Shown: positions 14,644 to 58,459 of the stretch, one piece after another
Layout: every line of letters begins with the position of its first letter
How positions within the stretch are numbered: the stretch's first letter is position 1
Source: Mytilus galloprovincialis
Lineage: Eukaryota > Mollusca > Bivalvia > Mytilida > Mytilidae
Length of the DNA stretch: 64,000 bases
Assembly: GCF_965363235.1 (NCBI RefSeq)
Contig: NC_134851.1
Coordinates: 35,802,321 to 35,866,320, forward strand
Reading direction: 5' to 3'
The notes under the pieces: model-generated
What the model was told of the DNA's origin: nothing
What the model saw: the letters and a program-made list of their open reading frames with translations, nothing else
Database searches by the model: none
Program-made: the position numbers and the translations under genes

Positions 14644-14695
14644 ATGGCAGTGTTAATCAGTTTTAGTTTGATCATATTAATCTCAGTGATCACCT
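14644..14695 (+). CDS. Gene A exon 1: leader peptide
   Basis: The ATG at 14644 is preceded in its own frame by a stop at once upstream (TAA at 14639-14641 lies just before it). The exon gives 17 codons of hydrophobic leader and ends ACCT|GTAAGT (phase 1). It matches gene B exon 1 in length, phase and donor. Confidence 0.65.
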
Positions 14696-17600
14696 GTAAG
14701 TACTTTTATCTTTTTTATTCTTTTTCTTTGTTCATTGATTTATATAAAATCGCACGATTTTAGCACGATGAGTTTTGTTGTATCGTAGACGTAATAATAC
14801 ATTTATATTGCGCTGCCTGTAAGGGGTTCTGTAGGAGGCGAGTGTCTTGCTATTCATTTTAAATTTTAATTTAATAGGTCATGGAATTCTTTCTTCCACT
14901 ATAACATTTCAATGTAATAAGTTATGGAATCATTACATCCCCTCTAACATGTCAATTCAATCATTGTATTCCCTCATTAATTCTCATGTATGTATTGAAA
15001 AAATATAGATAAAGGAGCTACCATTTGATTTTTATGGGGGGCTAGGATGAACAATTTTGTCCTGCATTTTTTTTTAGCTGTAATCTCTTACCTGCCTTTT
15101 TATTTTTCACTCTGTTCGGTCCTGCCTTTTTTTTTAGTTTATCCTAATTTTTTTTTACCTAAATTGTGGTCCTGACTTTTTTTTTGCAAGTGTCTCATCC
15201 TGCCTTTTTTTTACTCAAAACTCCTGTCCTGCCTATTTTTTTTCAAATTTCATCCTAGCCCCCCCCCCCCCCCCCCCCCCCCATAAAAATCAAGTGGTAG
15301 CTCCCTAAAGTTAAACCATTTAGGATTATAATCAAGAGAGAAATAGAAGACAATTATCAAATTTGAATTGAAAATAAGTTACATTGTTATGATGAAAATA
15401 GTAATTTATTTTATACAAACATATGAAACTTAGTCGAGATTAAGGATCTAACCTAATGTTCCACGATTCTATTTCACCAAACTCCGTATAACTAACACCA
15501 ATCTGAAAATTGAAAATAAGTTACATAGTTATGATGAAAATAGTAATTTATTTTATACAAAAATATAAAACTTAGTCGAGATTAAGGATCTAACCTAATG
15601 TTCCACGATTCTATTTCACCAAACTCCGTATAACTAACACCAATCTGAAAATTGAAAATAAGTTACATAGTTATGATGAAAATAGTAATTTATTTTATAC
15701 AAAAATATAAAACTTAGTCGAGATTAAGGATCTAACCTAATGTTCCATGATTCTATTTCACCAAACTCCGTATAACTAACACCAATCTGAAAATTGAAAA
15801 TAAGTTACATAGTTATGATGAAAATAGTAAATTATTTTATACAAAAATATAAAACTTAGTCGAGATTAAGGATCTAACCTAATGTTCCACGATTCTATTT
15901 CACCAAACTCCGTATAACTAACACCAATCTGAAAATTGAAAAGGATGGCTATTTTCAATCTCCTAAAGGAGATGGTTTATTTTAAGTTCTTGAAAACGGG
16001 GAACAATTCACTTTTCGAGTGTAAAAGAGTAATAAATTCAGATTAATTCTCGTTAGAAATTTTTTTAAAAGATAGTAGAACTGAGAACAGAATCACCATT
16101 ATTTTCCACGTTTTTATATATATATTTCATGACTGCATCAGTTTAATTCATGTTTACTTTATATTGTATTTAAATTATATGTATAAAACCCTCTTCTTAT
16201 TTAGCCAAACAGTGTAACATATAGATCTGAAATATTTTTGTTATTTCCTGCGCGGGATTATAGCAGCCTGCACTGTGTCCAGCGTCCTAGACCACTCGTT
16301 TCTACAACATTTGACAATTATACTAAAACAACGTTAGGGATGATGAGGTCCTCTTAAAGACTGGCATCTTGATATTACCTGTAATTCACCTGTTTTAGTT
16401 CTTAACTAAAATATTCTTAAAAAGGATATTGCTTTTTATAAGGTTCATTGTAAAATATTAACAAAACATAGTATTTTACATATAATTGGCTTTCATATTA
16501 TAAAAATGTCCCAAGATTTTAAAAAGTTGATATGATCTAGCACAGTGGTGTTAGTTTTAATTTTACTTTGTTTTCATATTGTTTACAATCTTGCTATCTT
16601 GAATAAACGTAAGCACTTTATATTCTGTGAGCTTTTAAGTATTTATAATAGATTGAATAATTAAGCTTATGTAAAAGTATCTACAACTGTTTATTATCAA
16701 AGATAAAGTATATTTAAATTTTTTAGTCAGCTTGCATTAGTTTTCCAATACTTACGTGACGAATAAAGAAAGTAGCTTACAATTCAACAAGCCAGTTCTC
16801 ACAGGTAAACAGGTTGGGAACAACCCCTGAAATGAAGGATAACCCCACAATGTAATGACTATCGCTTTTTTAAGGGGTAGATTCCAAGTGATTATAAATA
16901 TTTGTTGGTAAAAAAAAACATACTATTTGCAAAAACTTTTCCCAAAGAACTATACATATATCCAGTAACATATTGCTAAAACATGTCTAAGAATTTTGGA
17001 ATATTCATGGACTACAATTTTTTTAATATCAAAATTATAAATAGTAGAATTAAACTCATCATAGAACCAGGATTAAAACTTTATATTTACGCCAGAAGCG
17101 CGTTTCGTCTACAAAAGACTCATCAGTAACGCTCAAATCAACAAATGTAAAAAAATATAAAAGGCCAAATAAAGTACGTAGTTGAAGAGCATTGAGAACC
17201 AAAAAGAATAGAAAAGTTGTTCTAAATATAATGAATTTTCGCCTTTTTAGCTCAACTCGCCCAAAGGCCCAAGTGAGCTTTTCTCAACACTTTGCGTCCG
17301 TCGTCGTTTACTTTTACAAAAATCTTCTCCTCTGAAAATGCTGGGCCAATTTAAACCAAACCTGGCCACAATCATCATTGGGGTATCTAGTTTGAAAAAT
17401 ATGTCCGGTGACCCGGCTAACCAACCAAGATGGCCGCCATGGCTGAAAACAGAACATAGTGGTAAAATGTAGATTTTGGCTCATATCTCTGAAACCAAAG
17501 CATTTAAAGCAAATCTGACAGAGGTTAAATTGTTAATCAGGTAAAGATCTATCTGCCCTGAAATTTTCAGATGAATCCGAGAACCCGCTGTTGAGTTTCT

Positions 17601-20600
17601 GCCCCTAAATAGGTATTTTAAGGAAATTTTTCCGTTTTTGGTTATTATCTTGAATACTATTATAGATAGAGATAAACTGTAAACTGCAATAATGTTCAGC
17701 AAAGTAAGATCTACAAAAAAGTCAACATTACCAAAATGGTCAATTGACCCCTTAAGGAGTAATTGCCCTTTATAGTCAATTTTTACAATTTTTTTACAAT
17801 TTTTGTAATCTTTTACAAAAATCTTCTCTGAAGGTTCTAACACAAATTTAACCAAACTTGTCCACTATCGTCATTAGGGCATCTAGTTTAAAAAATGTGC
17901 CCGATGACCCCGCCCGTGAACCAAGATGGCCACCATGGCTTAAAATAGTACATAGGGTAAAATGCAGATTTTGGCTCATATCTCTGAAACCAAAGCATAA
18001 AGACAAAATATGCTGTAGATAAAATTGTTCATTAGGTCAAGATTTATCCCCCCCTGAAACTTTCAGACCAATCGGGCAACTTGTTGGGCTGCAGCCTGAA
18101 TTGTTAATTTTAAGGAAATTTTGCAGCTTTTGGTTATTATCTTGAATATTATTATAGATAGAGATGAACTGTAAATAGCAATAACGTAAAGCAAAGTAAG
18201 AGCTACAAATAAGTCCACTTGACCAAAGTGGTCAATTGACCTCATACGGAGTTATTGTCCTTTATAGTCATTTTTTAACAATGTTCATAAATTTTGATCT
18301 ACAAACACATCACTAACACCAAAACACAATTTTGTCACGAATCCATCTGTCTCCTCAATGGAAATTATTTTTTGGCATACTTGATTTGCATAGGATTTTT
18401 CAATAAAATGCTGAAAATATGCTTTAAACATTGCAAAAAACAAATATTTCATCAAATAAATTTAAGTCAGATATTCCTATGAAATTCATAATATGGATAT
18501 CCTTTTCATATTGGATACAATTTCTATTAAGTATGATGCAGACATTTCATAGTCAAAGCGTTACAACTAAGATACTACACAGGCGTCAAAAGGCGTCATT
18601 ATGGAGTAAAGGGGGTGGCGTCAAAAGGCGTCATTATGGAGGAAAGGATTAATAAGCACATAGACCAAAATGAGCGACACAGGCTCTTTGGAGCTTCTAG
18701 TTTAGTTTAAAAAGCCAAGTTTTTGGTTTTTCTCTTCTATACAACAGCGAATTACTCCCTTTCTGAGGGGGCAGTTTATTTGATATAGACATAATTATAT
18801 ATTAACTGTTTACAAAATTTTTTTTTTTTGAAATAATAACTTAGGTTTTTCTACCTCAGGAATATATTTAATACCTTAGCTGTATTTGGCAAAACCTTTA
18901 GGAATTGCTTGTCCTCAATGCTCTTCAACTTGCAACAAGTATAAACAAATTCAATCCTGGTATCTATGGTGAGCTTATTTCCTCATTAAATGAATATCCC
19001 TTATAGGGTTTGGGTGATATTTTAATAAATGAATGGATGGACCGTTAACGTTCAGTGGAAACTATAACATTCATGTCATGACGAATATTTGTTGATTTAA
19101 TATTCACAAAATCTGCATTGTACTTAACCGACACTCTGAGCCAAATTTTAAGCATAGAAATTCACAGTGTAAAAGTCCGCAGGTAGACATATCCCCCTCC
19201 CAGACCTGTGAACAATATATTTTCATTCGATATATGGCGAAAAATTAGGATCGACCACTGCCCCACATTTCCGCCTGAATAGTTTAAGTTATAAGCATTT
19301 TTTTTCGTTTACCGCATAATTGTCTGTATGGAAAGTAATGTTGTATCTGTATTGGTAACGGACTGGATATAAATGGTCGGTGAACATCATATTTCATATA
19401 GTCTAGCTTTATTATAATAAGTTTTCTATGCGTTTTATTCGGGAGCTTAACTTAACTTCTAAGGCCCCCTTAACAAATTCTTTGTTTGATGTTGCCTAAC
19501 CGTGCCTTGTAGGTTCAGGTACAATGTAGGTAGAAAAAGATTATTTTTTGGACCAACAATTTACATGTTTTAAAAACAAAGTTAGTAACTATTTTGATCT
19601 GAGCGACACTGATGAGTCTTATGTAGAGGAATACGCATATGGCGTATTAGATTATAATCATGGTACCTTTAATGATTAATTAGAGCACAATTGATTTTTA
19701 AACTTTGTGTTATTAACTGATTTGTGTAGAACGCTATTTGGATGGGTAGTTAGGCAGCATCAACCAATTATATGATTCAATTTTATGTCTGGCCTCAATG
19801 CCAAATTATTGCTGTTACAGGTATTTCTGATACTGATGCAGAAACAACGAGTGCCACATGTACCGACGATAAAGAAGGTATGTCAACAGTATTAATATAA
19901 TATATTACATTGAATTTGTAATATAAGTGATTTCGTAAAATTCCTGGAGATCATTGTCGCTCTTGTAAGATCTGATAACGAGGACAATCTGAGGTGAATG
20001 CTTAAAAATAGTCTTAATTAAATGTATAAAGGTCTCCAATATGGAGATATGATATCACATTGTAGGGTGATTTGTATAAATCATATATTTTTGTTAATCA
20101 GTTAAACTGTCCGTAATTTATATAAGGCAAAGATTGTTAAAACATTCAAAATTTTGTTATTCTGAAAACAAAAACCTTGATTTACCGTACGCAGGAAATA
20201 TGAAAAAAATAAAAACACTGAGCTCCCAGGAAATTTCTAAACGAAAAGTCCTTAAGGAAAAGCAAATTCAAAAGCTAAACACATCAACCAAATGATTAAC
20301 AACTGTCATATTCCTGACTTGGTAGGAAATGGTGGATTAAACCTTGTTTTATTGCTAGCTAAATCCCTCACTTGTATGACAGTCGCATAAAATTCCATTA
20401 TATTGACAACGATGTATGAAAAATAAACACCAGACATAATGGATATTTTTTTTAAATAGTGGCAATTCGACATTGTGTTATCATCTTATTCACTATAAAA
20501 ACAAACAAATATGTAAACAACCAAAAAACATTAAAGCATACAGACAAAGGACATTAGCAAAAATGAATGACAGGTATACAAAAATTCACCATAGCACAAT

Positions 20601-23600
20601 AACACAATGATGGGATGTATAAGTACCTTCCCACATCAAATGAATATTACCAAAATGGACTGATCAGTAAACGTAATAATTTACGAAGACAAATAAAAGA
20701 ATACCATGACACGTTATTAAGATAATACACAAAGTCAATACCTAGAATCTATACTTCAAGACCATCGTGTAGTATTTGTGAAGTTGATATGGAATATTTA
20801 TCAATAACATGAATAAGGTCTTGGTATTTTCCGATATTTTTTTTTAGTAAAAGGACAAGACGTCCTTTAATATACCCCTAGTTCATCAACCTTGTTCACC
20901 CTCTAGTTCATACACGTTTTAAGTGAAAGGCATTGTATCGACGGAATCGAAGTCACAACGAGCATTGAATTACTGAACCTCGTTTCATGGCTTTAATGGA
21001 TGTTATTGGGTGCACTGAAGCATTTTGTCGTATATCGTTGCATATCATTTCCACAGCAGATACTACATTTTTGAGAGAAAAACATAATTAGACATACTTT
21101 ATTCACAACAATTTACATCAGATGACACTTACACAAGATAAAATATGAAATATATGTTTTTAATCATGCAAAATACCTTGAACGCCTGTAATATACAAAT
21201 TTACTGACGGTTTATTTATTATTATATACAAATATGTTAGTGTAAAGTGTCTTAGAAATCTCCAAGTTTACGCTACGTTAATTGTTTTATGAATATCTTT
21301 TTTTTCTTTTGCAGGAGAACTACTAATGTTTTTTTCAGCAGGATTTATGACAGCATCCTTAGTATTTTCCATTGGTTGCTTTGTTTCAAAACGCAGCACC
21401 CAACCAAGGTATACACGATATAATATATTCATATTCATATGTTCATTAAAGGTTTCTACATATTAAAACAAATTTACTTGGATTATTATAAATTCTCCAC
21501 TTATTTCTAATTTATAACACACTTTATTTAACTTAGTCAATAGAGTTGTTTTCTCTTTGTCTAACCAAAGTAAAATCAATTTTATTTGGAATAAGGTTGT
21601 GTATATATATATATTGCTACAAATTATTTGATTCGAAATTTCTTCACGAAGAAAGATTAAATCTAGATAAAAAAAATCACAAATTCTCGACTTGTGTGTC
21701 AATGAAGTTGAAAAGACCTCCTGCCTTACTAAATAAGAATGGCACCAGCCTTATATATTCAAAGATGTGAAAAGGGGCAGAGTCACTTCTTGGTTAAAAA
21801 CGAATAATAAAACTCGTGTCATCTTCATACTTAAATGTATCTTAACGTCACGTTATAAATAAATTCATTACAATACTTTAAAAACTGGCCGGTAAAATAA
21901 TTACATAGCCAGCACTACAAAACATAAATCATATCTATTCATCAACAAATTAAGGTATCCTTTAAATCCTTAAAGCGAAGTATCTTTAACGGTGTAATTT
22001 TGAGACAGAATCAACTTTTTTTTTAATGTTGTTGTGTTGAAAATAAAGGGAAATGCATTTCATCTTCTAACACCAACAAACTCTGAATGTTCTGAATTCT
22101 TTATAACGATCTTAACCTACCAAGGAACTGTGGTCAGCTATCAGAAATCTCTTCCGTCCTCGAAGGCATTTTATTTTAAAATTTATAAAAATAACGACAT
22201 GTTTACAGTGCAAGTGTTTCATTCATTTGCAGAAATTATGCTTTGATTATGCTTACAGATTAAGTTTTTGTATCTTGCTTTTTTACCAGATTAGGTATGA
22301 GTGCCCATGAGAACACTCTCCATCCAAGTACAATGTATAAAAATTAACACCTATAGGTCAAATATGTCTCGTTGGCACTCATACCTCATTTTCTTATATC
22401 TAAATACAAAGTAATGAATTCAAAACGGAGCCTTGGCTAAATTGCAAATTATGCGTCCTGTGCTCAATTTTTCAATTTAAATAAATTTAGCGTTTAACTA
22501 CCATTTTTATATATAACAAAATCACAGTTCGTGGATGTCTGTTCATTTCTATCTATATATTACTGTTTTTAGTTTACTTTATTCTTATATTCCTCGATTA
22601 CGACATCATTATCCCCGTAGCTTTGCTTGCCATGAAGTACACGACAGGTTTCCCTTGTTGATCAAGTACCATATACTAATGCGCATTCTTTGATTTTTTT
22701 TAATAGTATTTTGTCTTTCGTCGTCTAACTTTAGGATATGGTGTTGTACATTAATCCTCGAAATTTTGATTTTGACTATCCTCATGGCATCTTCTTCCTC
22801 TTTTATTTGTTTTTTTTAATATTTCTTTATTCACATTTTCAAAGTATTGTATAATACAATCTCAATTAAAATAAAAAAAATACGACAAATTCAAATTTAT
22901 TTAACATTTGTCTTATTTGCTTACACTGACTAGTATATTTTATTTTGTTATTCAGCAATAAGAACAATAATGACACTACGATAACTGACCAAGGGGAACT
23001 TATGTTTGCAACAGCACCAGATAATGTATACGTTAACGAAGGATCGTGTGAGTCCGATCGTAAAAGTTATGGATACTGCAATATTGAAAAGAACTCTGAA
23101 AACTGTTCTCAGTCATCGAAATCTAAAAAGATATTAAATCAACTAGATTCGTATGATATGGTTGAGCACAATCGAGCAAAATCGCATTTGGGGAATGATG
23201 AAGATGATTCAAATCCGTATAACCATGTGACAGTCGATATGGAGGTTACCGAATACGACAACGCATGTTTTCTAAAGCCAAGGGCTGCAGTCATGGATCC
23301 AACATATTCTCATTTGTCAGAAGCAAACTTGCATATTGAAAGTCCTAATGCTACGAAACAAAAAGGTGACGAAGTAAACAACCAAACAAAGAGTTCCAAT
23401 GCTGAAACAAATTCAAAAGATCAACAGCAAAACACGTCAGAAAGGCAAAAGCCAAGGAAACCAGAAACGGAAAAAAGATACCAAAGGAAACCAGATATAC
23501 CACAGAAGCCTGAAATCAAAACTGATGACAGAAAAAAAACAAAACTAAAGGTCTTAGTGAATGGCGAAGAGCAGATACAAGAACATAAGATATGCTTAAA

Positions 23601-24201
23601 TGCTGAAATGGAGGAAAGCTCAAATATGACAAATTATGAAACCGACAATGATAAACTTGAAATAAAAGAGGGAAATAGGCTTAACAGAAAGAAGTTTGGA
23701 TACTCTTTCGTCCAGAAAAAGAAAGAAATCCCAAATAAAGATTCAGCAGAAACACCTAATGGATCCGATGCATTTGAAATTTCATGTGACGACGATGAAA
23801 AATCCTTCAAAATCAGGAGTAAAAATAAAGAACATAACACTGCAGAGAAATCAACTGAAGCAAAGAATGGGAAATCATCACTTGAGGTTTTGTTCGATCA
23901 AAGTAATGGTTTTTTCCTCTTTATTTCAAATTGTGAAGAGAGCAATGAAAGGAGCAACAAACACGTTTTTCCTGAAACCAGTTGCGGAAAATTAGCATTC
24001 CCAAATGGTAGGTATGAAACGTCAAGTAATAATGATAGTGATTCAGAAACCGAATTACTTCCACCTGGAATGGCCATCAATATTTTGTATGAGGATGTGC
24101 CAATTACCAAAGGAAATGTCAGGATCAGTGCTGTTGATGAGTCTTCGGGTCAGGAACTTGAATCGTCTCATGAACAATCTGAGGAGAATTACTCTATTTG
24201 A
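14644..24201 (+). CDS. Gene A: single-pass membrane protein with tiny ectodomain and tyrosine-motif tail (LAT/PAG-like adaptor architecture)
   Basis: Exons are 14644-14695, 19821-19877, 21315-21408 and 22956-24201, with GT-AG borders and phases 1, 1, 2; the total is 1449 nt or 482 residues. Residues 1-18 are a hydrophobic leader (MAVLISFSLIILISVITC), 19-37 a short acidic/Thr-rich ectodomain, 39-60 a membrane helix (FSAGFMTASLVFSIGCFV) with Cys58 at its inner edge, and the rest a hydrophilic, disordered-looking tail. Tail tyrosines: YVNE (Y93), YCNI (Y108), YDMV (Y134), YNHV (Y156), YDNA (Y168), YSHL (Y185), YSFV (Y317) and ILYEDV (Y446). YxN is the known Grb2-SH2 consensus, and IxYxxV fits an ITIM-type motif. 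Signalling by phosphotyrosine is inferred. Further phase 1-1 ectodomain exons could hide in the 5.1-kb first intron, so the tiny ectodomain is a minimum model. It is a paralogue of gene B. Confidence 0.72.
15013..15305. mobile_element. MITE with TAA target duplication and a ~30-base poly-C tract (PIF/Harbinger-like ends)
   Basis: Ends are AGGAGCTACCATTTGATTTT and (inverted) GGGAGCTACCACTTGATTTT, continuing into G/C runs. Flanks are TAA on both sides (15010-15012, 15306-15308). The interior is repeated CCTGCCTTTTTTTT-like text and a C run at about 15259-15282. It is in intron 1 of gene A. Confidence 0.55.
15370..15938. repeat. Tandem array, four units of 142 bp
   Basis: Units begin GAAAATAAGTTACAT at 15370, 15512, 15654 and 15796; spacing is exactly 142 bp with only a few substitutions. 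The array is in intron 1 of gene A. High identity suggests recent amplification. No coding frame. Confidence 0.85.
16245..16308 (-). repeat. tRNA-derived SINE head fragment, minus strand
   Basis: The minus strand reads CGAGTGGTCTAGGACGCTGG then ACACAGTGCAGGC, matching the A-box region of the SINE at 6020-6206. The B box is not preserved. Confidence 0.4.
17055..17200 (+). repeat. R4 repeat copy
   Basis: CTCATCATAGAACCAGGATT, CGTTTCGTCTACAAAAGACT and GTTGAAGAGCATTGAGAACC match 6605-6885. It ends close to the start of R1 copy 3. Confidence 0.6.
17244..18702 (+). mobile_element. Composite element R1, copy 3 (two modules)
   Basis: It starts TTTTTAGCTCAACTCGCCCA and ends GAGCGACACAGGCTCTTTGG then AGCTTCTAG. 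Modules start near 17320 and 17818. Two 32-34-bp copies of GGCGTCAAAAGGCGTCATTA lie at about 18583-18648. It sits in intron 1 of gene A. Confidence 0.7.
18835..18975 (-). repeat. R4 repeat copy, inverted
   Basis: TTTTTCTACCTCAGG, TTAGCTGTATTTGGCAAAAC and CTCAATGCTCTTCAACTT are the reverse complement of the R4 landmarks at 6605-6885. Confidence 0.6.
19821..19877 (+). CDS. Gene A exon 2: short ectodomain
   Basis: The exon lies between acceptor GCTGTTACAG and donor GAAG|GTATGT; it is 57 nt, phase 1-1. It encodes ISDTDAETTSATCTDDKE. Its counterpart in gene B (32399-32446) is also short, Ser/Thr-rich and phase 1-1, which supports it as a real exon despite its size. Confidence 0.6.
20200..20700 (-). 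repeat. R2 repeat copy, inverted, in intron 2 of gene A
   Basis: AACTGTCATATTCCTGACTT, CTCACTTGTATGACAGTCGC and ATAAAATTCCATTATATTGAC match the reverse complement of 54660-54920. The remainder (GACATTGTGTTATCATCTTA) is shared with 51900-51950. Confidence 0.55.
20756..20840 (-). pseudogene. Retroelement 3' fragment, minus strand
   Basis: The minus strand translates as KYQDLIHVIDKYSISTSQIL then HDGLEV, matching the end of the retroelement fragments at 13980 and 53877. It is a short decayed piece in intron 2 of gene A. Confidence 0.45.
21315..21408 (+). CDS. Gene A exon 3: transmembrane helix
   Basis: The acceptor TTTTCTTTTGCAG ends at 21314 and the donor CCAAG|GTATAC follows 21408 (phase 1 in, 2 out). 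It encodes FFSAGFMTASLVFSIGCFV then SK, a single membrane helix with basic stop-transfer residues. The FSAGFMTA and IGCFVSK blocks are shared with gene B at 34535-34625. Confidence 0.75.
22282..22405. repeat. R3 fragments head to head (short foldback)
   Basis: AGGTATGAGTGCCCATGAGA at the left and TCTCGTTGGCACTCATACCT at the right are near-perfect inverted copies of the R3 start. It lies in intron 3 of gene A. Confidence 0.55.
22956..24201 (+). CDS. Gene A exon 4: cytoplasmic tail
   Basis: The acceptor TTGTTATTCAG ends at 22955; the exon runs 1246 nt to a TGA at 24199-24201. It holds all tail tyrosine motifs, a K/E/Q-rich middle, a conserved NRKKFGYSFVQ block and the C-terminal MAINILYEDV block. 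The frame is open a few codons upstream of the acceptor, but exon 3 joins only at 22956 (AG+C). Confidence 0.8.
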
Positions 24202-24226
24202 ACATCTAGCTTATTTGAACAGTATA

Positions 24227-24440
24227 TACTATGGACTCATTATAATTCGTGGGATGCTAATTTTCGTTGATTTCGTGGTTACAGGTAAACCACGAATCTA
24301 AATGTTCAACAGAAAACAAATTTTATAAAGGTCTGTATATATGCACTTCACACTAGTACTACGAAATCAAATATCCACGAAAATACAAAGTTTCCTCAAT
24401 CCATGAAAGTTGGTACCCACACAACAGTGAATCCACAGTA
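24227..24440. mobile_element. MITE in the likely 3' UTR of gene A
   Basis: Ends TACTATGGACTCAT and GTGAATCCACAGTA are inverted repeats flanked by TA. A second family member with the same ends is at 58139-58361. It begins 26 bp after the gene A stop codon, so gene A transcripts probably contain it. Confidence 0.6.
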
Positions 24441-24930
24441 GATTAAAATCCTTATTCTACATCCACCTTGAATGACGTAATTTCGTTATTTTGATAATCA
24501 ATGCTACGGGTACTTGCTAAATAAATGCCAAAAAATATATATGCATTTTATAAATTGACTATTTTTTAACAAAATGCTTTAAGTTATAACATTTAAAGAA
24601 ATATTGGACCACTGTTATAATTATTTTGTAATTTATTTTTATTATCTAAAAAAAACTCCAAGCTTTGTAATACATGGATACATAAATAATTTACGATACA
24701 AGTATTACTACTAAATCTTTCAATAACAGTCTCAAGCTTAAAATCCACTTTTAGAATTGACATAAAACAGTTTATTCAAAGATAATTGATAGTTATACTG
24801 CATTCATCAGTATTGTTGTGAAGGATTTATAAAATTACATCCTTTATCAATAGGAAATTAAATCTTGTGACTCGTGTTGGGAGAGTGCTATGCACGTTAA
24901 GAATTCTTTCATGCATCGGTAGATGAGCTG

Positions 24931-25022
24931 TTAAAAAAGCTCATTTTTCGTAGCATATCATATATACCGTCATTTCTAGTTGACGGTATATATGATATGC
25001 TACGAAAAATGAGCTTTTTAAA
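24931..25022. repeat. Near-perfect hairpin, ~41-bp arms, 8-base loop
   Basis: AGCTCATTTTTCGTAGCATA in the left arm and its reverse complement in the right arm, around the loop TTTCTAGT. Only about one mismatch or slip at the outer end. It could be a very young MITE or a small-RNA hairpin. Confidence 0.75.
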
Positions 25023-25603
25023 ATACTGATTTTTTTATCCAGTAAAGTAAATCTATTGCATAACTTGTCTAATGATTTTTTTTTATTATTTGTCCTCTTT
25101 TGGACCTGAACTGGACAGAAAAATAAACAAACAGTCAAACAATCAATGATGTTCATATTTTTATTTGCTCATTTTGAATAAACAAAGTGTTTTCCACCAA
25201 TGAAATTGTTGGATTTGATGTTTATTAATTATGAAGAATGAATGTAAATCTTTATCAACACTTCAGCTCATACTTGATAATGAAGAAAGGGAATTACATT
25301 CTCTTTATACACATACATACCACACTTCTATTTTGATAAATAGATTTTTTATTTTGTCAAGAAAATTTCGATTATCATAAAAGGACACTCTGAAATACAG
25401 AATGGGTACATATTGCCGTAGTTTCACCGTATTTATTAATCATAGACATAAATTCTTTCACTGTTGGTATTTAAAGAAATGAACTTAATATTTCTGACCC
25501 TTTTATCTCAATAATAATGTTATTCTAACTATTACAGAGAACGATATTTTCAGCTGATAACTATAGTTAGCTCTAATGAATGTAATAATGAAATAATGTA
25601 CAT

Positions 25604-25890
25604 AATAAACTCGTCATACGCCAGACGCGCGGTTCGTCTACAAAAGACTCATCAGTGACGGTCGAATAACAAAAATGTTAAAAAGGTCAAATAAGTACGA
25701 AATTAAAGAGCATTGATGACCAAATATTTCTCAAAGTTTTGCCAAATAAAACTAAGGTAATATTTTCCTGATGTAGAAAAGCCTTAGTATTTCAAACATT
25801 TAAAGTTTTTGTTAACAGTAAATTTATAATTATGAACATATCAATGATAATTCAAGTCAACACAGAAGTACTGCCTACTGGATATAGTTG
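25604..25890 (+). repeat. R4 repeat copy
   Basis: GTTCGTCTACAAAAGACTCA, GAGCATTGATGACC and TTTTGCCAAATAAAACTAAG match R4; the end reaches TTCAAGTCAACACAGAAGTA. Confidence 0.6.
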
Positions 25891-26577
25891 TTTGTATTAT
25901 GCCTAAAGTAAACATATACACAAAAATTATATTTTAGACTGTTTTCATGCTGCTAAGTAAACTAAGTATTCGTTGCATATTTAGCCAATAAGTTTGCTAT
26001 TTGTGTAACTTATACTTGTTTAATTTGCGAAATTAGAGCAAACAAGTAGACAAAAGAAAATCATACTTTTGAACTTTTCTTCGAAATACAATATAAATAA
26101 ATACACAAATACTTAGTATGATGCATGTAAAGCAAATAAATTATTGATTATCATACGAGCTATTGGTAAAAAAGAAAAGAGAAAAATGGGAAAGATTTAA
26201 GTTATATTAATCTTTGTTGATAACGTCGATGATGTTGATGGTCTGTCTCCGCATCAATACCGTTTTTTGGAGGTGCAGGAAATCTGTTTGCCCTTTTGAT
26301 GAAATTTTATATAAACAATGTTTATCTTAAAATTCTAATATTTGTGTTTATCTGTATCTGTATTTATTTTGTTTTTTTAGTTTGCATGTCCGTTGTTTTA
26401 AGGAAGAGTAAATATTCATTTTAATAACGACCTCTATAAATATGTATTCATTGAAGTATTTCATTTTCATTTTATTTGTTTGATCATGATGATATAATTA
26501 TTATTACGTATATAGTTAAAATAAAACAATTACAATGAAGTCATTGTAAAAAAAAAAGACTTGATTATGAATGTTTA

Positions 26578-26640
26578 GATGACGCCGACGACGAAATGTA
26601 AAATAGCTATGTCTCGCTTTTTCGACAAAAGTCGAAATTG
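26578..26640 (-). repeat. Small GTCG-rich repeat fragment, minus strand
   Basis: The minus strand reads GACTTTTGTCGAAAAAGCGA, then GACATAGCTAT and TTCGTCGTCGGCGTC. It is the same family as 45460-45540. Confidence 0.4.
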
Positions 26641-27079
26641 ACAAAATTCAAGACAAAATCCCCCAAAATACATCTTCAAATCATAATGCACGCTCTTCAA
26701 CAAGAGACCAGGGTTCATAGTAATTAAACATTAATTAATCTCACAGTTATAAATCACATGAATGCCCAGCAGAGCATATGATATGACTTTTGTTATCAAC
26801 TGCTGCTGGTATAGATCAACTGCTTATTGTTAATATCGCATGCCTTTCTTAAATTTATCTCACAGCATTTCGACGTCATTCTGCAAATTCCAATAAAAAT
26901 TTCTCTGTGGTACATTTTAGTGAAAAACATAACCATGTAGAATAAAAAAAACTATTAGGAAACAGATGAATAAATTATCTAAAAATGCAAAACAAATAAT
27001 GCAATAAATGAATGTTATAAAAATTTATAAAAGTTCTTGTTTGAATGTCTTCTGCTGAAGTATATGATAAAAAGAACAT

Positions 27080-27194
27080 AGCATGTCATTTTTTTTTTTT
27101 ATATCAGACCCCTTTTCAGCCCATTATCAAAATCCTCCCTCGAGCCTGTCGGCTTACGGGCTGATATGGGGCCTGATATAAAAATTGCCATGCT
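27080..27194. mobile_element. Short MITE
   Basis: The left end AGCATGTCA...TATATCAGACCCC pairs with the right end GGGGCCTGATATAAAAATTG then CCATGCT. About 115 bp, non-coding. Confidence 0.5.
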
Positions 27195-30100
27195 TTAATC
27201 TATATTTATCACATTCTGCAGGCTTAAGAATGGGAATCTCAATATCCAGGTAGGCGTTTAATTTTCTGAAGCATAAAATGCATTCAATTTTCACTTAACT
27301 AGTTCCTGGCGTGCCTTGAAACATGTTTGTCTGTGCTCAGATAAATTGAAAAATATATTTGTGGGTACACCACAAAATCTACTCTCAAAACAGACAAACC
27401 GATGTAGCTATGATGGTTTTGAGGCATGGCAGGTCCTAGATATATAAAGTTATATGAATTTTAAAACTGTCCTGGATTTTAATGGGATTCTTTTTCAGTC
27501 TGCAGAAGCTAGCAAAATAAACAAACATGTAAGTTTCGTTTTAGTACGGTCCACTAAATTACACAGGTTACATCACCTAGCTATTATATGCAGAACTCGA
27601 TAGTACCTCTATTGTCAATTTAAATCAATACAACCCACAACATTTCAGTAAGAATTCTACTTCGTCAAAATTATCTCATCATTACGCCAGCTCATTTTTA
27701 CAATCGTAGGAATTGAAGCCATTGTAGGGATGACGCGCTGTCAATTTAGCTCTTGAAAACTGATAGATTTATCAATATACTATATAGCACGGTTACGCTC
27801 ATTATATGTCAGTTGTATTTTAAAGACAAATGTATCTACTAGCTAATGGGCATAAATTAATGTATTTGTCTGCATTGAGTTAACTTAAAACTATTTTCTG
27901 ATCGAATGTCAGGTGGAATTTTCGAAAATTCATAAACATTTAAAAAAAAAATCTAATTTAATATTTCGTGGTAGGACAGACTAAAAATATTCAGTGGTTA
28001 AAGACTATAAATCCGAATTATCACACACAAAAAATGATTTTATTTCGAAGATATGCATGTTTAAGATCCAACTTAAAAGACTGTTGTCAAGTACTATTAG
28101 TAAAAAAAATAGCTATTCAAACACACCTACTCTGTTTTTTGTGATTCATTAGAAAGGTATTTCACTTACCCATATAATATATTGCATCTTTTAGTTCTAC
28201 GAATTTGTGATGTTATAAAGTCAACCTTGTAGCCTTGATATATAAAAATGATAGAATCTGAAGCGAGAGCATGTATCAAATACTCTTGATTTATACGTTT
28301 CCAAGACAAAATATTCAACTCAAACAAGCCCTAACATAAAAAGGTGCACTCGATTTTCTATTTTCAATACAATTGTTACCCATTTTTTTGGATTTTTTTC
28401 TTGAGTCACATAATGGAAGGGCAGACACGAAAATAACTAAACTAAAAGATTGATATGTTCTCCGTCCGTGGTAATCGAGGTTATGCATTTTCTACATCGA
28501 ACTTGATAGATACCCATGTCGTCGACTTGATATCTAATTGTTCTGCTTAACTATGTAAAAGATAAATCAGAACTTATGCAAATGGTGTTTTTAAAATAAT
28601 ATACTTCGTAATTGTGTAGAAAATTGTCATTTTATTTATTTCTATTAACTTTTAAAATGTTTGTTTATATAGTAAACATTACAGTAAGCATTTATCGCCT
28701 TCTCTAACAAAGAGCTTCAATTCTTTTGTTCTATTTCAACCGGGTTTCCGCCTGATTTAATATACAAAGGGGGTTTCTCAAATAACTTTCCAAACTCAGT
28801 TTATTTTTGCATCTCTGCAGGAACAGAAAAAATGAAAAACAAAATCTTTAACTTATAGTGAATTTAAATTTTATATATCTAGGTTCAGCCATGCTTTTAA
28901 ACTTTTCCAAGTGCATAGGTTCATTTGTACTCACAGCGAAAAAACGACAAGATTTGTTATCATCAGCCTTGAGACTGAAATATCAACCAGTACACATCCA
29001 ACGTTCAATGCATGTAGCGTAAAAGGTAAAAAAAAATGTGTTTCTTTCACATTAACATGACATTGTGCAATGCCAAAATATTGGTATCGACAGAATGTAG
29101 GAACGATAATGTTCCTATGTGTCAATACTATTTTGTTAAAAGTGCCTTATTAGTAATTTGTTATAAATATTTTATTTAAAGAATCAATAAGTTTACCCTA
29201 TTTGTACCTATATTTACGGGCTCGATAAATAACATCACCGCAAAAATTAGGATGTGTTATCCCATTTTTAAGTTTTCTACTAGCACATCCAAACTTCCAA
29301 ATCAGATTTTCGTATCGATGAATACATTTATTAAAGGTTTTGCTAGAAATACATAGATAACGTTCGTGAAATCGAAAACATCACCAAATGAACATGCATA
29401 GCAAGGACGTTGGGATATATAAATACCTATAACATAAGGAACATCACAATAAAAAAAATGAAAATTAACCATAGGGAACAAAGAATCGTCCCCTTTATCG
29501 TAAATCTGCGAGAGTTATCCTTGTATATATCTAAATATCAGAAACGACATGTATGCTGTTTATCTTTCAAAATGATTTATTCACATTATGTTCCTTTGAG
29601 TAAATTAGGCATTTTGTTTAGAGAATTCGTGATTTTCCCCGAAAAATTCAATAAGATAATAACGGTAAGTGTTGTTGAATTTTACCAACTGAATGGGATT
29701 TGTATAGCTCTTTGCTGGATTTTACCACAACTTGTGATTCATAACAACACAACAACAGGTCTGCTTTTAAAGGTTCGCAATTGGTATACCTAGGAAGTCT
29801 AAGTTGTGGTTAGATTAAATAGAGTCTCCTAAATGCTTTTTCTTAGAGAATTAGCAGCACTCTTAAAATAACAGTTAAGATTATAATTAACGGTAATACT
29901 AGCGCCGGGTCAGAAAAGAGATAAATCGTGCAAAAGTGCAAATCATGTCTTCTGACAGAAACCCTAAATAAACAATAAAAATTGTGACAATAAAATAAAT
30001 TGGCAGAGGTATGAAATACAAGATTTGACAGAAATTATATTACGGATAATACAATATGGGAAAGTATATTGTTTAAAAAGGTGTTAGCAGCTACGAGATA

Positions 30101-31272
30101 TGAATGTATAAACAATTTAATTCGCTTTAACATGTTTCAGCAGTTTGGTTCATTTTTTCAAAATAAGCAAAGAAACATAGCTGATAAATTATTCACTTAC
30201 AAATGTGAATAATTCTACAATATTGAATCCGTATTTATGTGACCTTAAATTTGACCCGTTAACTGGTGATGGGCCACACATGTATTCATCTGTTAAAAGA
30301 GAAAAAATTAACATTGAAAATGAAAAGAGGAAGAACCATATGATTGACTGATGCGATCCACAAAACAATCATTATTTATACAGGTAAAAATCGATGATAA
30401 ACGTTTAACCTGCAGTATGAAATCAAACACACCTAGAACAATCCATATGCACATGACTGCTTTTTATCTATGTTTATATGCACTTTTTATATCAGGTAAT
30501 ATGACCATCGGCAGTCCTCGGCTGGTCTAGACTAAAATACACACGAAATTTCTATACATCTATGACTTTACACATTGTTTGTTTTTATTTGAAACTAATG
30601 GTACATGAACATGTGATTTCCATTTTAGTTGTAATAAATCAAATATGGAAATTTGAGTCGAATTGGTGAATATGACAGCTTATGCCCCTTACACGTATAG
30701 TTATTCGACTTAGCACACATCAGTTTGTTATCTTTAACAATTGATATTGCATCATTTTGTCGAATTCTTTAATGCTGGTAGTTTGTGCAATCCTTAGAAC
30801 AGTTGAAAGCCGTCTTAATAATGTTTTATATTTTAGTCTGTTATCAAGGCGTTATGGTGAGCCCGGAAATCAGAAACAACAATATACCGTGTTTCTATTG
30901 AATAAAGTGCCAACAAAGTAAAGCCTGGTATGTTTTATGAGTTTACTGTTAAATTTAGATAAAATACATTCTGCTCAATTGTGCATGACTTTGGTAGAGT
31001 GAGTTTATTTTTCATAGGTGGTATGAAAGAAATATACGATAGATAAATATCAAATGATTATGCATTGTTGGAGAACTGGAATAATGATTTATGAGAACGC
31101 AATAGAACTAAAAAATAATGGTTTAAAAGGAAATTATTATTATTCATTCAGTCTAGCGTCAATAATTTGCAATACCAGGAAACGTCCACTCTTATTAAAA
31201 TTAGTATGAATTCACATTATGTTTTGACTAAATATTTCCGTATTTCATATCAGTTATAAAAATATATGAAAA

Positions 31273-31327
31273 ATGGCGACGGTGTCCATCTTTCGATGGG
31301 GGTTTATAATTTTACAGATTACATGCT
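31273..31327 (+). CDS. Gene B exon 1: leader peptide
   Basis: ATG at 31273, donor TGCT|GTAAGT at 31327/31328, phase 1. It encodes a hydrophobic leader ending ITC(C). An upstream ATG at 31266 is out of frame and gives no leader, so the 31273 start is preferred. Confidence 0.65.
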
Positions 31328-34300
31328 GTAAGTACAAATATATGTTTGCCTATTTTTTTCTACTCTCGACTCTGCAGAAAAGAGGATCAAAAATCTTTAT
31401 CATATGGTTACATACATACATCAAGGTATTTCCTCCTTCGAAACGACAGTTTAAGATACTAGTAATGTGCCATTCTTAATCAATTTCAAGGGGAACAAAA
31501 CCCGTTTAATATTTTATCCATGAAAACAAATGCCGTTGTATAATGTTTTTGGTATTCCCCAAAAAATACGTTGAATTCAAATCAAAACAGAAAATTAGAG
31601 TTCTCTTGTATTTCAGATAATGTTAGAGTATGTTATAAATCCTACCGTAAAATTTCATTGTTCAAAAACCTTACGAGGACCATACATACAGCCTCAGGCA
31701 ATAACAATCACCATGCCGAGTGTCATGACAATTAGAAGAAGAAAGCTTCGCCTTTGACGGAAGAATATTTATCTTTAAAAAAGAAAAGTAGTTTATAAAG
31801 CTGAAAATGACAAGTCGTTACCTAAAAAATCAATTTGGTGTCAATTTGAAATTTTGGCAACTCATTTTATAATTTAAGATTTACAAACTTTCTAGTGCAT
31901 ATTGATAGAGAATGGAGACCTTACACTGTTTAAATGCATACGTATCAATTCAAAAACAAATAACGTCTCCTAGTCGATTGATATGAATAAAATCCTTTGA
32001 TTAGGATGAAACACAGGTAACAGTGTATAAGAATTGTAATGATGTTCCGGACAAATTTACTTATACAAATGGTGACTTGGATGGAGAATTGCCAAATTGA
32101 CACTCATACCACATTTTATATAAAATTACATTTTTTAATACGTATTTATGACACAATTTTACAAATTTTAATGAAAAGATGGTAAAAGTTCGAGGCAATA
32201 TACCGAACAAACTTGTATAACATGTCGAAAGAAAAAAACAAGGAAATAACCCAATAGGTGCTTTATTTTGAGCATATAAAAATATGACTGTTTTTGTGAT
32301 AGAAATGAATTAGTAACAGTTTACGATGCATTTATTTAGACGCCAATATACAAATGTGTATTTCTGTTGTAAAAGTCTTTTTTCACATATAACTGCAGGT
32401 TTTACAGACAATTCTTCTACTGTACAATCTACTACTGATAGATATAGTAAGTCTGTATTAATATTTACAGTTTATAATTATTCCCAAATAATTTATCATC
32501 ACAATTCAAAATGCAAGATTAACGTATTGTCCTTCTATTCATTGTCATGCCTGTTCAAAGATGATATTCAACTAGAATCATCTATTTTAAGGAAAGTTTT
32601 AAATGGTGTATCAAAATATAATAATATGTAATGTTCGACTTCTTTAATGTTTTTAAATCGCTATCCTTGTAACGTAAATTAGGCTCAGAAATCGTATTTT
32701 AATTCGCAATCACCTATTCCTAAACTTACATAGAATTTCCAGGATTTGAACACTTTCGGTTAAATCTCATTGAGTGTTTTTAAATTCAAGTATTCATTGA
32801 GCTCAATCGATACATATTTTCATCTATTTTTTTTCAATTTTCCATTTTCATTTAATAGTGTACTATTTTACCTATATTTTAGATACCGTTTGGGATTATA
32901 TACAATCATTCTTTATAAGTGGTGAGTATAACCAACTAGCATGCTATAATTTTAATAGTTCAAACACGCCTGGAAAACCTTCAATTCTCAACCAAATGGT
33001 TAAGCGAGAAAAATTAATTGGCACTTGCTGTTGAGCTTTTCTGGTGAAAATATAAAAAAAGTCATCAATTTATTGTCAATCCGTGAATGTTGTCTTAAAT
33101 AGGAGAATGTAACGTCATAGATAACTGAATCAGATCTTTTCTTGATCATTATCCGTCCAATGTGATTTAAAATGACATCGAAAGGATTTTTCTTCCGCAT
33201 GCAGGTAAGTGCGGCCAGCTCATTGAATATTTGACAAAATAAAATAAGATCTTCAACACGTATCAGTATATATCCTAATCAATATAAACCTATATTAACA
33301 GTTTTTAACTATTTCTTTACAAATATAATTTTATCAAGCAGATTATCTTGTAGTGTATGCTAGGTTGAGATTGTCCGGTATCGGTTGTGATATTCTGGAA
33401 CAATGTAAAAACTTCCAACTAACTACTTGTTAATCAGATACGACCGTCAAAATTCGTGAACCCTCTGTATAGTGGTTGTCATTATAGCTTGTTTTTGTTT
33501 TAACTTTTGTTTTGTATGTTCGAGTCTTGTTTATCTATAAATACAATAACTAAAGAGTGGTGGTTTTTAAAGTCGCTATGCTTAATGTCTCCAGCGCTTG
33601 GCTCTTTATCGCTTGGCTAAACATCTGGTTTTCTAGGCTTTAAAACTACCACTCTTCAGTATTAGTATTAATAGACCTACAATATTAGAACATACAATAC
33701 TAATGTCAAAAGAAAAGCAAGTTAAAATGACAACCCTTATACAGAGGGTTCATGAATTGTTAGGGTCGTATCTGATTGACAATTATCTATTTCGAAGATT
33801 TGTTTTTACAGAAAATCTCAACATTGTTCAAGTATATCCCAACTGATACCAGACAATCTCAACCTGACATACCTTTTAAGATATTCAGGTAAATCAAATC
33901 ATCTTCGTAAATATATAGAATAAAAACTGTTATTATACGTTAATAGTGAGGAATAAGAACTTTTATATACTGATATATATATTACGTATTGATTAACTGA
34001 TTGTCATTTTGTCAAAAACGGAATGAGCTGACAGCACTTACCTGCGGGAGAAATGTCAATACGATGTCATTTTAAAATCACATTGGTCCGAGTAATGAAC
34101 AAGACAATCTTTTATTTAGTTATCTATGGTATTACATTCATCTATTCAAATAAATACTTACAGATTGACAATAAATTGATAAGAAGTCGACCTATCCTGT
34201 CTTTATTTTTGGTATTATTACCAGAAAAGCTCAAACGGAAGTGCCAGTAAATTATTTCTAGCTTACCCATTTGGATGAGATTTGATGGTTTACAAGGCGT

Positions 34301-36790
34301 GTCAAAGCTGACTCTTTACAAACAAGTAGTCCCTATTGAATGTATACAAGACACTATATGTTAAGGTGAAGAACCCGACTGAAAGCTCATTTGTTTTAAT
34401 AATCACTTTTATAGGCCTACGCGTTTTGCTAACCCGATAGATTAGTATCCATTTGAAAACTTTAAAGTATCTCCTAACACAATCATATAAATACTGTTAT
34501 CAAATAGTTACACATGACTTCATTATAATTTTAGAATCCATAATGTACTTCTCGGCGGGTTTTATGACAGCCGCTTTGATTTTTGCCATTGGCTGTTTTG
34601 TCTCAAAATGCAAGACGTCACGAAGGTATGTGAGATGTTGCAATTAGTAAACAATTGAATAATGACAGATTATTGACGATACAAATGCCTTGAAAATCTG
34701 GAATACTTGTGTTCAAAATGCCCATAAGAAAACCGCACAACTAGAATACAATATTTATTTCAGTAACCTATTATTATGATAAAATCATATCTTGCTTAAA
34801 AGTTTTTTTGTCCCAAAAAAAACTCAAACATCCTTCACCTCACGAGCTCCCTTTAACATATTACGTAGGCTTTGAACTATGCTTTGTATCAAACTCTTTC
34901 AATGAGGCAGCAACACAAAAGCAAAAATAACCAATCGATATCTAGAGGCCAGTGTACAGTCTTCAACAAAAAATAGATTCCTAAATAAACTGACAAGCTA
35001 TAAATCGTTTCGAATCTAAAAGAAATGTTAATAAAATTAAAAATTAATCTGTTAAAAGCTATAATTCCATTTTTCTAATTGAGCTACCAGCATATGCTTA
35101 GCTTTAAAATGCCCTACAATAATACATAGTTAGAAAGTTCAACAAAACATACCAGTACCCATATATTGCATAGCGTTTTCTGTACAAAAAATAATATTAT
35201 GATAATTTTGTAAGATACATGTTAAAAGTTAAGGCACATACTAGTAGCTCAATGCGTAGCACGTGTGTATCTTCAATTAACTTCATCAGGACGAACTATT
35301 CTAAAGTTTGGACCTTTGAATCAAAACAAAAACACTCAAATGAAACAAACAAGACCTTCTAAATATTAAAGATTGGTATGTGGTGACCGTGTATACAACA
35401 GAGGCGACAGTTTAATGGCCGATATAGAACTTGCTTTCTAAAAATTATATATGTAAATATAGGCAAATCATATCATAGGTAATGAATATGTTGACTTAAA
35501 TATAGGAAAGATGATGATGCAGAAAATGCTGAACTTATCGATGACGAGGACAAAGTGTTTGTATCAGCACACAAAAACGAGTATGTTAATGAAGGTTCGT
35601 TCGAATCTGATCAGAAAAGTTATGCTTACTGCCATATTGACACGGATCAAAAAAGCTCCGATGACTTTTCCCAATCATCAACATCTAAAAAGCGGTATAA
35701 TCGAGAATCGTACGATCTTGTTGACCACAACAGGATAAAATCGTCGTTGTTGAATAAAAAGGAAAATCCAAATCCGTATAACCATGTGACAATCGATATG
35801 GAGGTTACCGAATACGGCAACGCAAGTTTCTTAAAGCCAAGGATTGAAATCATGGATCCAACATATTCTCATTTGTCAGAGATGAAATTGCAGGATGAAA
35901 AGACAAAGAAAGACGATAAAGGGAAAATAGAACACAAGTCAACGGATGAAAAAAACAATTCAAGTAATAAAGAAAATAAAAAACAAAAGACAACGGAAAA
36001 AGAAAAGCAGAAAAAAACAGAAAAGAAAAAAGAAAAGAAACCAAAAAAAGTATTCGAAAATCAAAAACAAAAAAAGTTTGAAAATGAAACACAGAAACAA
36101 AAGAAACCAGAAACAGAAAAACAAAAGAAAAAGCAAAATAATCCGGAAAAAGATCAAGGAAAGCAAATAAATCAACAAAAAGAAACCTATAAACCAAAAA
36201 CGCTAGAAAATGAAGCCTTAAAACAAAAAGAAACAGAACCAAAAGAGAAGATGAAAATCAAAAAGGAACAAAGAACCGACATAATACAAACAACAATGGA
36301 AAAGGGAGAATATAAAGTCATTAACAATTGTGAAAATGATGAAAAGACAGTTGAAAATGACAACGAAAAAGAAAATCCCTCAGAGGACAATAAACTAAAT
36401 CGACACAAATTTGGTTACTCCTTAGTTCAGAAACAAAGATCCATCCCAAATGAAAAAACAGCGCACATAATAGAGGGATCACACACTTTTGAAATTTTGT
36501 GTGATCAAGATGATAGCTCTTACCAATTAACTTCTAGCAGCGAAGAAAGTAATGAAACTAGTGAAGTTTCTACTGAGAGTAACAGCAGAGAATCATCAGT
36601 TCCGGGTGTAAGCGATGAAACTTCCGGTAGCGGAAGCGAAACTGAAACCGATAAATTATTGCCATCTGCGATGGCGATAAATATCTTGTATGAGGATGTG
36701 TCCGTCTCCAAGGGAAACGTCTTAATTGGTGCAATAGTTGAGACCTCTGAGTCAGAATTTGAATTACAAGAGAAAGATGGAAATAACTAA
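31273..36790 (+). CDS. Gene B: paralogue of gene A, tyrosine-motif membrane adaptor-like protein
   Basis: Exons are 31273-31327, 32399-32446, 34535-34625 and 35506-36790, phases 1, 1, 2, total 1479 nt or 492 residues. Layout: leader (residues 1-19, MATVSIFRWGFIILQITCC), about 17-residue ectodomain with an NSS glycosylation sequon, membrane helix (36-57, FSAGFMTAALIFAIGCFV), juxtamembrane Cys55 and Cys60, then a long tail. Tail tyrosines: YVNE (Y91), YCHI (Y106), YDLV (Y134), YNHV (Y156), YGNA (Y168), YSHL (Y185), YSLV (Y369) and ILYEDV (Y460). The motifs from Y134 to Y185 fall at the same residue numbers as in gene A. The linker between Y185 and Y369 is lysine/glutamate-rich low complexity, longer and more basic than in gene A. 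A possible extra in-frame exon lies at 32883-32921. AATAAA follows the stop by about 40 bp. Function in phosphotyrosine signalling is inferred. Confidence 0.72.
32050..32125 (-). repeat. R3 fragment, minus strand, intron 1 of gene B
   Basis: The minus strand reads ATGTGGTATGAGTGTCAA and ATTCTCCATCCAAGT, the R3 start. Confidence 0.45.
32399..32446 (+). CDS. Gene B exon 2: short ectodomain
   Basis: The acceptor AACTGCAG ends at 32398 and the donor ATATA|GTAAGT follows 32446; 48 nt, phase 1-1. It encodes FTDNSSTVQSTTDRY, Ser/Thr-rich with one N-glycosylation sequon. It is equivalent to gene A exon 2. Confidence 0.6.
32883..32921 (+). CDS. Candidate optional exon of gene B (39 nt, phase 1-1)
   Basis: The stretch lies between a pyrimidine-rich acceptor (CCTATATTTTAG) and a strong donor (GTG|GTGAGT). 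It is 39 nt, phase 1-1, and would insert NTVWDYIQSFFIS between the ectodomain and membrane exons without breaking the frame. I see no counterpart in gene A. It could be a cassette exon or chance. Confidence 0.3.
32959..34308. mobile_element. Large inverted-repeat (foldback) element in gene B intron
   Basis: The left flank text ACACGCCTGGAAAACC, CCAAATGGTTAAGC, TTGAGCTTTTCTGGT and AATGTGATTTAAAATGACAT recurs inverted at the right (GGTTTACAAGGCGTGT, GCTTACCCATTTGG, ACCAGAAAAGCTCAA, ATGTCATTTTAAAATCACAT). Inner arms also pair (GGTTGAGATTGTCCGGTATC with GATACCAGACAATCTCAACC). Arms are about 600 bp and diverged; the centre is near 33600. The short open frames inside are not genes. The intron transcript could form long double-stranded RNA. 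Confidence 0.75.
34535..34625 (+). CDS. Gene B exon 3: transmembrane helix
   Basis: The acceptor TATAATTTTAG ends at 34534 and the donor CGAAG|GTATGT follows 34625 (phase 1 in, 2 out). It encodes SIMYFSAGFMTAALIFAIGC and then FVSKCKTSR. It is nearly the same protein as gene A exon 3. Confidence 0.75.
35506..36790 (+). CDS. Gene B exon 4: cytoplasmic tail
   Basis: The acceptor CTTAAATATAG ends at 35505; the exon runs 1285 nt to a TAA at 36788-36790. It begins with an acidic stretch (RKDDDAENAELIDDEDK) and then the first motif EYVNEG. It ends with a Ser/Glu-rich stretch and the conserved MAINILYEDV block. Confidence 0.8.
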
Positions 36791-39881: not shown

Positions 39882-40339
39882 GAAAAACGAGATGATTTCA
39901 AATTTCAACAAGCATTAGCCTTTCAAAAAGGGCTAGTCGACTCTTAGCTGATGAAAATGGAAAGTGCTCTCGTTTATTCATTTACTAGAGTAGCCACGTG
40001 CATCAGTCAACAAATTTTACCACACACGTGAGGTCACACGTTATGAAGTAGTATATATCGTTTAACGTTGTTGTTTACGAAACTCCAGAAGATTCGACTA
40101 TTTATAGATAAAAGTTACATGTGTACCAATATCATGAATATGCATGATTAATGACAAGGCAAAATCTAATTGCAAATCCGATACTCTACGGGATTGAAGG
40201 ACATTTAATAGGTTTGGATTGTCCTAACCAATTAATAAACTTTGATTATTCACGTCTCGTAATATCTTCCAATCAGGTAGCAAGAAAAATTCACGTACTG
40301 ACTGTCCATCGTTCAATTCTTAATATCGACTCCTAGGAG

Positions 40340-58361: not shown

Positions 58362-58459
58362 TTAGTTTACTTGTTATAAAATGCGAACTACAGAACACAT
58401 TTTGAGAACGATTTTGTTTTTTTTAACATATATATGTCTTTCCATTTTAGGAAGTCCAG

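Follow-up and report, generated by a model that had tools for sequence, protein, structure and literature searches.

A tandem pair of candidate transmembrane phosphotyrosine adaptor genes, with a second copy, in the genome of Mytilus galloprovincialis

Background

Could a mollusc carry membrane scaffolds built on the same plan as the transmembrane adaptors of vertebrates, and are two neighbouring genes of the mussel of this kind? Transmembrane adaptors are described within lymphocyte signalling, and the portion of PMC2803307 cited here gives them a short ectodomain, a single helix and a long tail with several tyrosine sites. The same portion places a CXXC motif in LAT, LIME, NTAL and PAG, and counts LAX, SIT and TRIM as being without palmitoylation sites (PMC2803307). 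A sequence-only reading had proposed that a tandem pair of paralogous genes with this architecture occupies 14644..36790 of the window, by which we mean the whole stretch of 64,000 nucleotides analysed (contig C14, 35802321-35866320). We examined the gene models, their conservation and their possible relatives in the genome, which was searched as 1.38 Gb in 331 contigs.

Results

Two paralogous genes on the plus strand

The proposed bounds proved exact: gene A starts with its ATG at 14644, and the stop codon of gene B ends at 36790. Both paralogues lie on the + strand, A at 14644-24201 and B at 31273-36790, and their exons, joined at GT/AG borders, remain open for 482 and 505 amino acids, respectively. 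The pair was likewise borne out by the match between the two tail exons (38% identity, E 1e-71) and by a second pair, A' and B', on contig C2. Judged by exon lengths, the introns are in phase 1 as far as the helix exon and in phase 2 ahead of the tail exon.

Gene A has four exons, as had been proposed. Exon 1 (14644-14695) contains the start codon and a hydrophobic leader (MAVLISFSLIILISVIT), is open and ends at a GTAAGT donor, its C2 copy being 6 nt shorter and in frame. Exon 2 (19821-19877), a phase 1-1 exon between a TTACAG acceptor and a GTATGT donor, encodes a short acidic predicted ectodomain and has a C2 copy equal in length and frame. Exon 3 (21315-21408) encodes the predicted transmembrane helix (hydropathy peak 1.83) and the juxtamembrane GCFVSKR, and its helix-coding stretch is identical in C2. 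Exon 4 (22956-24201) encodes the predicted cytoplasmic tail in one open frame. Intron 1 measures 5.1 kb by these exon models and holds a 142-bp unit repeated four times in tandem with 98% matches (15366-15942).

Gene B had also been given four exons, and that count is probably one too low, a probable fifth exon (32883-32921) having been missed. Exon 1 (31273-31327), present in the C2 copy, contains the start codon and leader (MATVSIFRWGFIILQITC) before a GTAAGT donor, and exon 2 (32399-32446; phase 1-1) encodes a serine/threonine-rich stretch of predicted ectodomain with one N-glycosylation sequon, the C2 copy being 60 nt long and in frame. The probable extra exon, numbered 3, would extend the ectodomain by NTVWDYIQSFFIS; it is a phase 1-1 exon between a TTTTAG acceptor and a GTGAGT donor, its C2 copy is 51 nt long, open and in frame, and no counterpart was recognised in gene A. 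Exon 4 (34535-34625) encodes the predicted helix and the juxtamembrane GCFVSKC, with a C2 copy 9 nt shorter, and exon 5 (35506-36790) the predicted cytoplasmic tail in one open frame. The helix exons of B and A share 67.6% protein identity (E 1.5e-14) over a 34-residue match that extends a few codons beyond the exon. A further candidate exon of phase 0/2 near 33812-33889, inspected by eye, was dropped for its phase mismatch with the neighbouring exons.

The pair recurs on another contig

When the whole genome was searched with the tail of B, with the best 97 of 301 candidates scored, all eight match rows fell in A and B of the window and in the second pair, on C2 near 42.105 and 42.120 Mb. A comparison of C2:42070001-42150000 with the window showed that the two stay colinear, through introns as well as exons, between about 3.3 and 46.3 kb of the window, in matching pieces of 70-94% identity. 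By this alignment, the second pair sits in a segmental duplication of approximately 43 kb (window 3300-46300 against C2:42085200-42137100), within which no other genes were recognised in the few checks made. We rejected a haplotype artefact as the source of the C2 copy: the two copies lie on different contigs, and we prefer a duplication because the exon flanks, at 60-97% identity, are more divergent than alleles would be expected to be.

Every exon of A and B has a C2 counterpart with GT/AG borders, an open frame and conserved phase. Seven of the eight gaps within exons in the alignment of C14 with C2 are divisible by three, while of the 65 gaps in flanks of 200 bases only 13 are; the eighth exonic gap is a gap of 10 nt in exon 2 of gene B, the total lengths of which differ by 12. 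Several stretches outside the exons are also alike between the two contigs. The 200 bases 3' of the stop codons are 93% identical for A (24202-24401) and 97% for B (36791-36990), above the intron flanks, and window 37679-42058, at 94% identity, is closer than the introns and includes an inverted pair of short tandem arrays of the ACACTGAGA type (38787-39022 and 39665-39823). About 0.7 kb 3' of the gene A stop lies a long palindrome (24931-25024) that matches its C2 counterpart in both orientations. A repeat whose unit measures roughly 500 bp is dispersed at 240-2226 (four tandem copies), 7324-7876, 17244-18296 and 46561-47642, and occurs also on C2.

Anatomy of the predicted proteins

Both A and B are predicted to begin with a leader, followed by 20-40 residues outside the cell, one helix with GCFVSK at its end and a tail 420-440 residues long, and conservation in four copies supports this architecture as first proposed. 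Hydropathy shows two peaks in each of the four proteins, at the N-terminal leader and at the helix, and none in the tail; a signal peptide is predicted from hydropathy alone. The ectodomain so delimited would make up 4-8% of the protein across copies. An earlier estimate of about 20 residues agrees with A (22 residues) and is too low for B, which would reach about 32 with the extra exon. Acidic residues outnumber basic ones in all four ectodomains, the ectodomain cysteines are not conserved, and one N-glycosylation sequon each occurs in B and B', at different places, with none in A and A'.

The helix core contains no charged residue (D/E/K/R) in any of the four proteins. The positive-inside rule bears on membrane topology, and it lends no more than partial support to a type I topology: the first post-helix residues are basic (SKR, SKCK), but the 20 residues after the helix carry a net positive charge in A and A' and a net negative one in B and B'. 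At the membrane border, A and A' have a single cysteine (CFVSKR) and B and B' have two in the arrangement C-x4-C (CFVSKC), so that the CxxC palmitoylation site of the raft adaptors is absent from all four.

Conserved tyrosine motifs in the tail

Between 75% and 80% of the tail consists of disorder-promoting residues, with no Pfam domain in it. There are 13 tyrosines after the helix in each of A and B and 12 in each of A' and B', and nine alignment columns have tyrosine in all four copies. Eight of these nine fit YxN or Yxx[VILM] in every copy: YVNE, YCNI/YCHI, YDMV/YDLV, YNHV, YDNA/YGNA/YDNG, YSHL, YSFV/YSLV/YCFV and YEDV. The eight conserved motifs of the sequence-only reading are thus better described as nine conserved tyrosines, eight of them in a motif. 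Of the eight columns with tyrosine in some copies only, one fits (one-sided Fisher p=0.003 against the conserved columns), and shuffled tails give an expected rate of 0.21-0.23 per tyrosine. Because A/A' and B/B' are close duplicates, independence in these statistics comes from the two diverged paralogues A and B. Between these, 11 of the 13 tail tyrosines of A align with B and nine are kept, as against 176 kept among 343 aligned residues of other kinds (one-sided p=0.04).

YxN motifs bind Grb2-type SH2 domains, and YxxPhi motifs are read by a range of SH2 domains or by AP-2. Every one of the four copies has Yxx[V/L/I] at six of the nine conserved tyrosines (YCNI/YCHI, YDMV/YDLV, YNHV, YSHL, YSFV/YSLV/YCFV and YEDV), which in A numbering span about 340 residues.

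A constrained tail and a diverging ectodomain

Between A and B we obtained dN 0.37, dS 1.5 and dN/dS 0.25 over 419 codons, with a dN/dS of 0.27 in the tail. The close pairs gave higher ratios (A against A' 0.62 overall and 0.55 in the tail; B against B' 0.59 overall and 0.40 in the tail), and the counts of N versus S changes in the tail, combined over the two close pairs, gave p=5e-5. On these substitution counts the tail evolves under purifying selection, and recent constraint, judged by the close-pair ratios of 0.55-0.62 and 0.40-0.59, is modest. Residues 219-358 of the B tail show no constraint in the comparison of B with B', where the ratios of 0.84 and 1.98 come from few changes.

The ectodomain presents a different pattern. 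Nucleotide identity between C14 and C2 is 72-73% in the ectodomain exons, compared with 80-91% in the leader, 90-95% in the helix and 94-95% in the tail, and amino-acid change in the ectodomain is far above that in the tail (p=3e-20). The flanks adjoining the ectodomain exons are 60-92% identical, and the exons themselves fall inside this range. Being no more alike than their flanks, they lack the constraint that a fixed ligand-binding fold would impose. The raw pN/pS of the ectodomain exons is 2.4 (N versus S, p=0.04), a value obtained from 46 aligned codons that include indels and dependent on the alignment. We prefer the reading that the ectodomain is nearly free to drift over one of driven change; positive selection may nevertheless act on it, and would suit contact with something outside the cell.

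Relatives in the genome and in the databases

The helix exon (E up to 10) and the first tail block each gave four matches in the genome, namely the four genes, and nothing further among the best candidates scored. The last tail block gave seven rows, six of them in the four genes and one on C7 at E 2.99. We considered the latter as a distant paralogue and took it as chance, since its frame encodes a B-box/NHL protein (Pfam B-box 3.6e-5, NHL 0.001) resembling an ORF of the window at 58451-60148, although BLAST of this frame with B as the sole target gave E 2e-5, and with B' 0.008, over a serine-rich stretch. A larger receptor family sharing the helix and the searched tail blocks was thus not found in the 1.38 Gb genome at the sensitivity used. 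That ORF, free of stops over 565 amino acids and of the TRIM type, shows zinc fingers of the B-box class (E 1.7e-10) and matches beta-propellers weakly; to it a B-box/NHL frame at L025:3074-4798 is similar.

Homology to LAT, PAG, SIT or LAX, which had been suggested, finds no support in profiles. With E up to 10, hmmscan of the four proteins returned DUF1345 (0.36) and CSG2 (0.41) only, one member each and at chance level, with filters that discard most matches above 0.1; the best match, at E 0.36, is unrelated. A genome search with the Pfam PAG model, at E up to 1, gave no match, but it gave none in any control genome either. A search of the PDB by sequence gave no relative (best E 1.4), and neither did tRNA and Rfam scans of the window. 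Among the matches listed from the open-access literature, none describes such a family in a bivalve. SH2 domains gave 54 exon-level matches in the genome (E up to 0.001), some with internal stops and some resembling the halves of a split domain. All of them lie on contigs of the series C1-C14, of which 13 have matches, in keeping with the 14 chromosomes of mussels. Hence potential readers of phosphotyrosine, which in transmembrane adaptors is bound by SH2/PTB proteins, exist in this genome.

Discussion

A candidate phosphotyrosine scaffold

We propose that A and B are type I single-pass phosphotyrosine scaffolds that dock SH2 proteins and work like LAT, SIT and PAG, possibly having arisen independently, and we regard this as a probable reading, held with reserve. 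The likeness claimed is one of action and not of membership by descent. The architecture and the motif grammar speak for the adaptor interpretation as first put forward, the missing homology and CxxC speak against parts of it, and it is from the former that we infer a phosphotyrosine function. The leader would place a little-constrained ectodomain of 20-40 residues outside the cell, and the helix, together with a membrane-border cysteine that is possibly acylated, would tether the tail to the plasma membrane. Upon the triggering of a separate receptor, a membrane-associated tyrosine kinase, presumably of Src or Syk type, would phosphorylate up to eight or nine tail tyrosines; SH2 adaptors of Grb2 type would next be drawn to the YVN and Y[DG]N sites, and to the YxxL/V/I sites other SH2 proteins such as those of PLC-gamma, SHP or Csk type.

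Since YxxPhi motifs double as endocytic signals, the same tail might instead belong to an endocytic or sorting protein, in which unphosphorylated YxxL/V serves as a signal for the AP-2/AP-1 mu subunit and the tail drives the trafficking of partner cargo. Six of the nine conserved tyrosines would suit such a role; the conserved YVN and YDN/YGN sites, however, are not known to be sorting signals, and six YxxPhi motifs over some 340 residues would exceed what sorting needs, so that we think this unlikely. Rather more unlikely is a signalling subunit that pairs through its helix with ligand-binding receptors, after the manner of DAP12, FcR-gamma and CD3-zeta. A tiny ectodomain and a tyrosine tail are common to these proteins and to A and B, but ITAM subunits are defined by a charged helix residue and a YxxL/I pair at ITAM spacing. 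In A and B the helix is uncharged in all four copies, the conserved Yxx[V/L/I] motifs stand at least 18 residues apart (A numbering) and are without ITAM spacing, the ectodomain cysteines vary, and the tail is several times longer than in most such subunits.

The rapid change of the ectodomain raises the prospect of a true small receptor, in which the short ectodomain would meet a ligand or a molecule of a pathogen and diversify, with direct signalling by the tail. The elevated pN/pS and the excess of amino-acid change over the tail point in that direction, although so few aligned codons, with their indels and dependence on the alignment, weaken the first of these, relaxed constraint accounts for most of the change, and 20-40 residues would be too few for a folded domain; we judge such a receptor improbable. 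The tail exons might also form part of larger receptors through unrecognised ectodomain exons or promoters. Intron 1 of A is long enough to give this some room, a 104-aa open frame (32317-32631) encloses exon 2 of B, and our comparison of A and B frames missed the short leader and ectodomain exons, and so could miss other short exons. That protein-level comparison, of 280 same-strand frame fragments from the A region against 154 from the B region, yielded at E below 1e-4 the helix exon, the tail and their shifted frames only, the next pairs outside these exons (E 0.001-0.002) being two short, chance-like matches. Moreover, the interval from the leader exon to the helix exon of A has no + strand frame of at least 80 amino acids, and the 104-aa frame of B is interrupted in the C2 copy by a stop three codons ahead of the exon 2 acceptor. 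A large ectodomain spliced between exons 1 and 3, which the sequence-only reading had named as evidence against its proposal, is therefore unlikely within the reach of a comparison that short exons escape, and we consider larger receptors in general very improbable.

Comparison with known systems

The scaffold reading can be set beside several known systems. SIT possesses a leader and an ectodomain that is short and glycosylated; B and B' each have a single sequon. Grb2-type YxN sites are found in the raft adaptors as well as in A and B, and LAT is not known to have a leader, in contrast to the cleavable-looking one of A and B. In the portion of PMC2803307 cited here, the raft adaptors LAT, NTAL/LAT2, PAG/Cbp and LIME resemble A and B in their short ectodomain, single helix and long multi-tyrosine tail, and differ in having CxxC, while A and B are molluscan and have no Pfam match. 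The non-raft adaptors SIT, LAX and TRIM have the same anatomy, likewise without CxxC (PMC2803307), and show no sequence match to A and B. By the structural definition given in that portion of PMC2803307, the predicted anatomy fits a transmembrane adaptor that lacks CXXC. The part of PMC3177817 cited here gives SIT two consensus sites for Grb2, and the SIT family is ranked among novel vertebrate proteins in the corresponding part of PMC5620054.

More tentatively, molluscs may have evolved their own transmembrane phosphotyrosine adaptors independently of vertebrate LAT, PAG and SIT, their tail conserved and able to dock SH2 proteins at several sites, their miniature ectodomain diversifying and, in this lineage, the pair doubled onto another chromosome; we offer this as a possibility that is open to serious doubt. 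If the molluscan adaptors are indeed independent, a LAT-like signalling hub would exist without an adaptive immune system, and a protostome pair that shares this plan but is unrelated in sequence would show that a membrane anchor combined with a multi-tyrosine scaffold can arise by convergence. The gene pair would also provide a simple way into the receptor signalling of bivalve haemocytes. Among molluscs, the TM1 proteins of the Guadeloupe Resistance Complex in the snail Biomphalaria are comparable with A and B in being encoded by neighbouring genes for single-pass proteins with fast amino-acid change. They differ in the proportions of the protein, their large beta-rich N-terminal ectodomain making up more than 50% of it in the part of PMC4361660 cited here, as against 4-8% in A and B.
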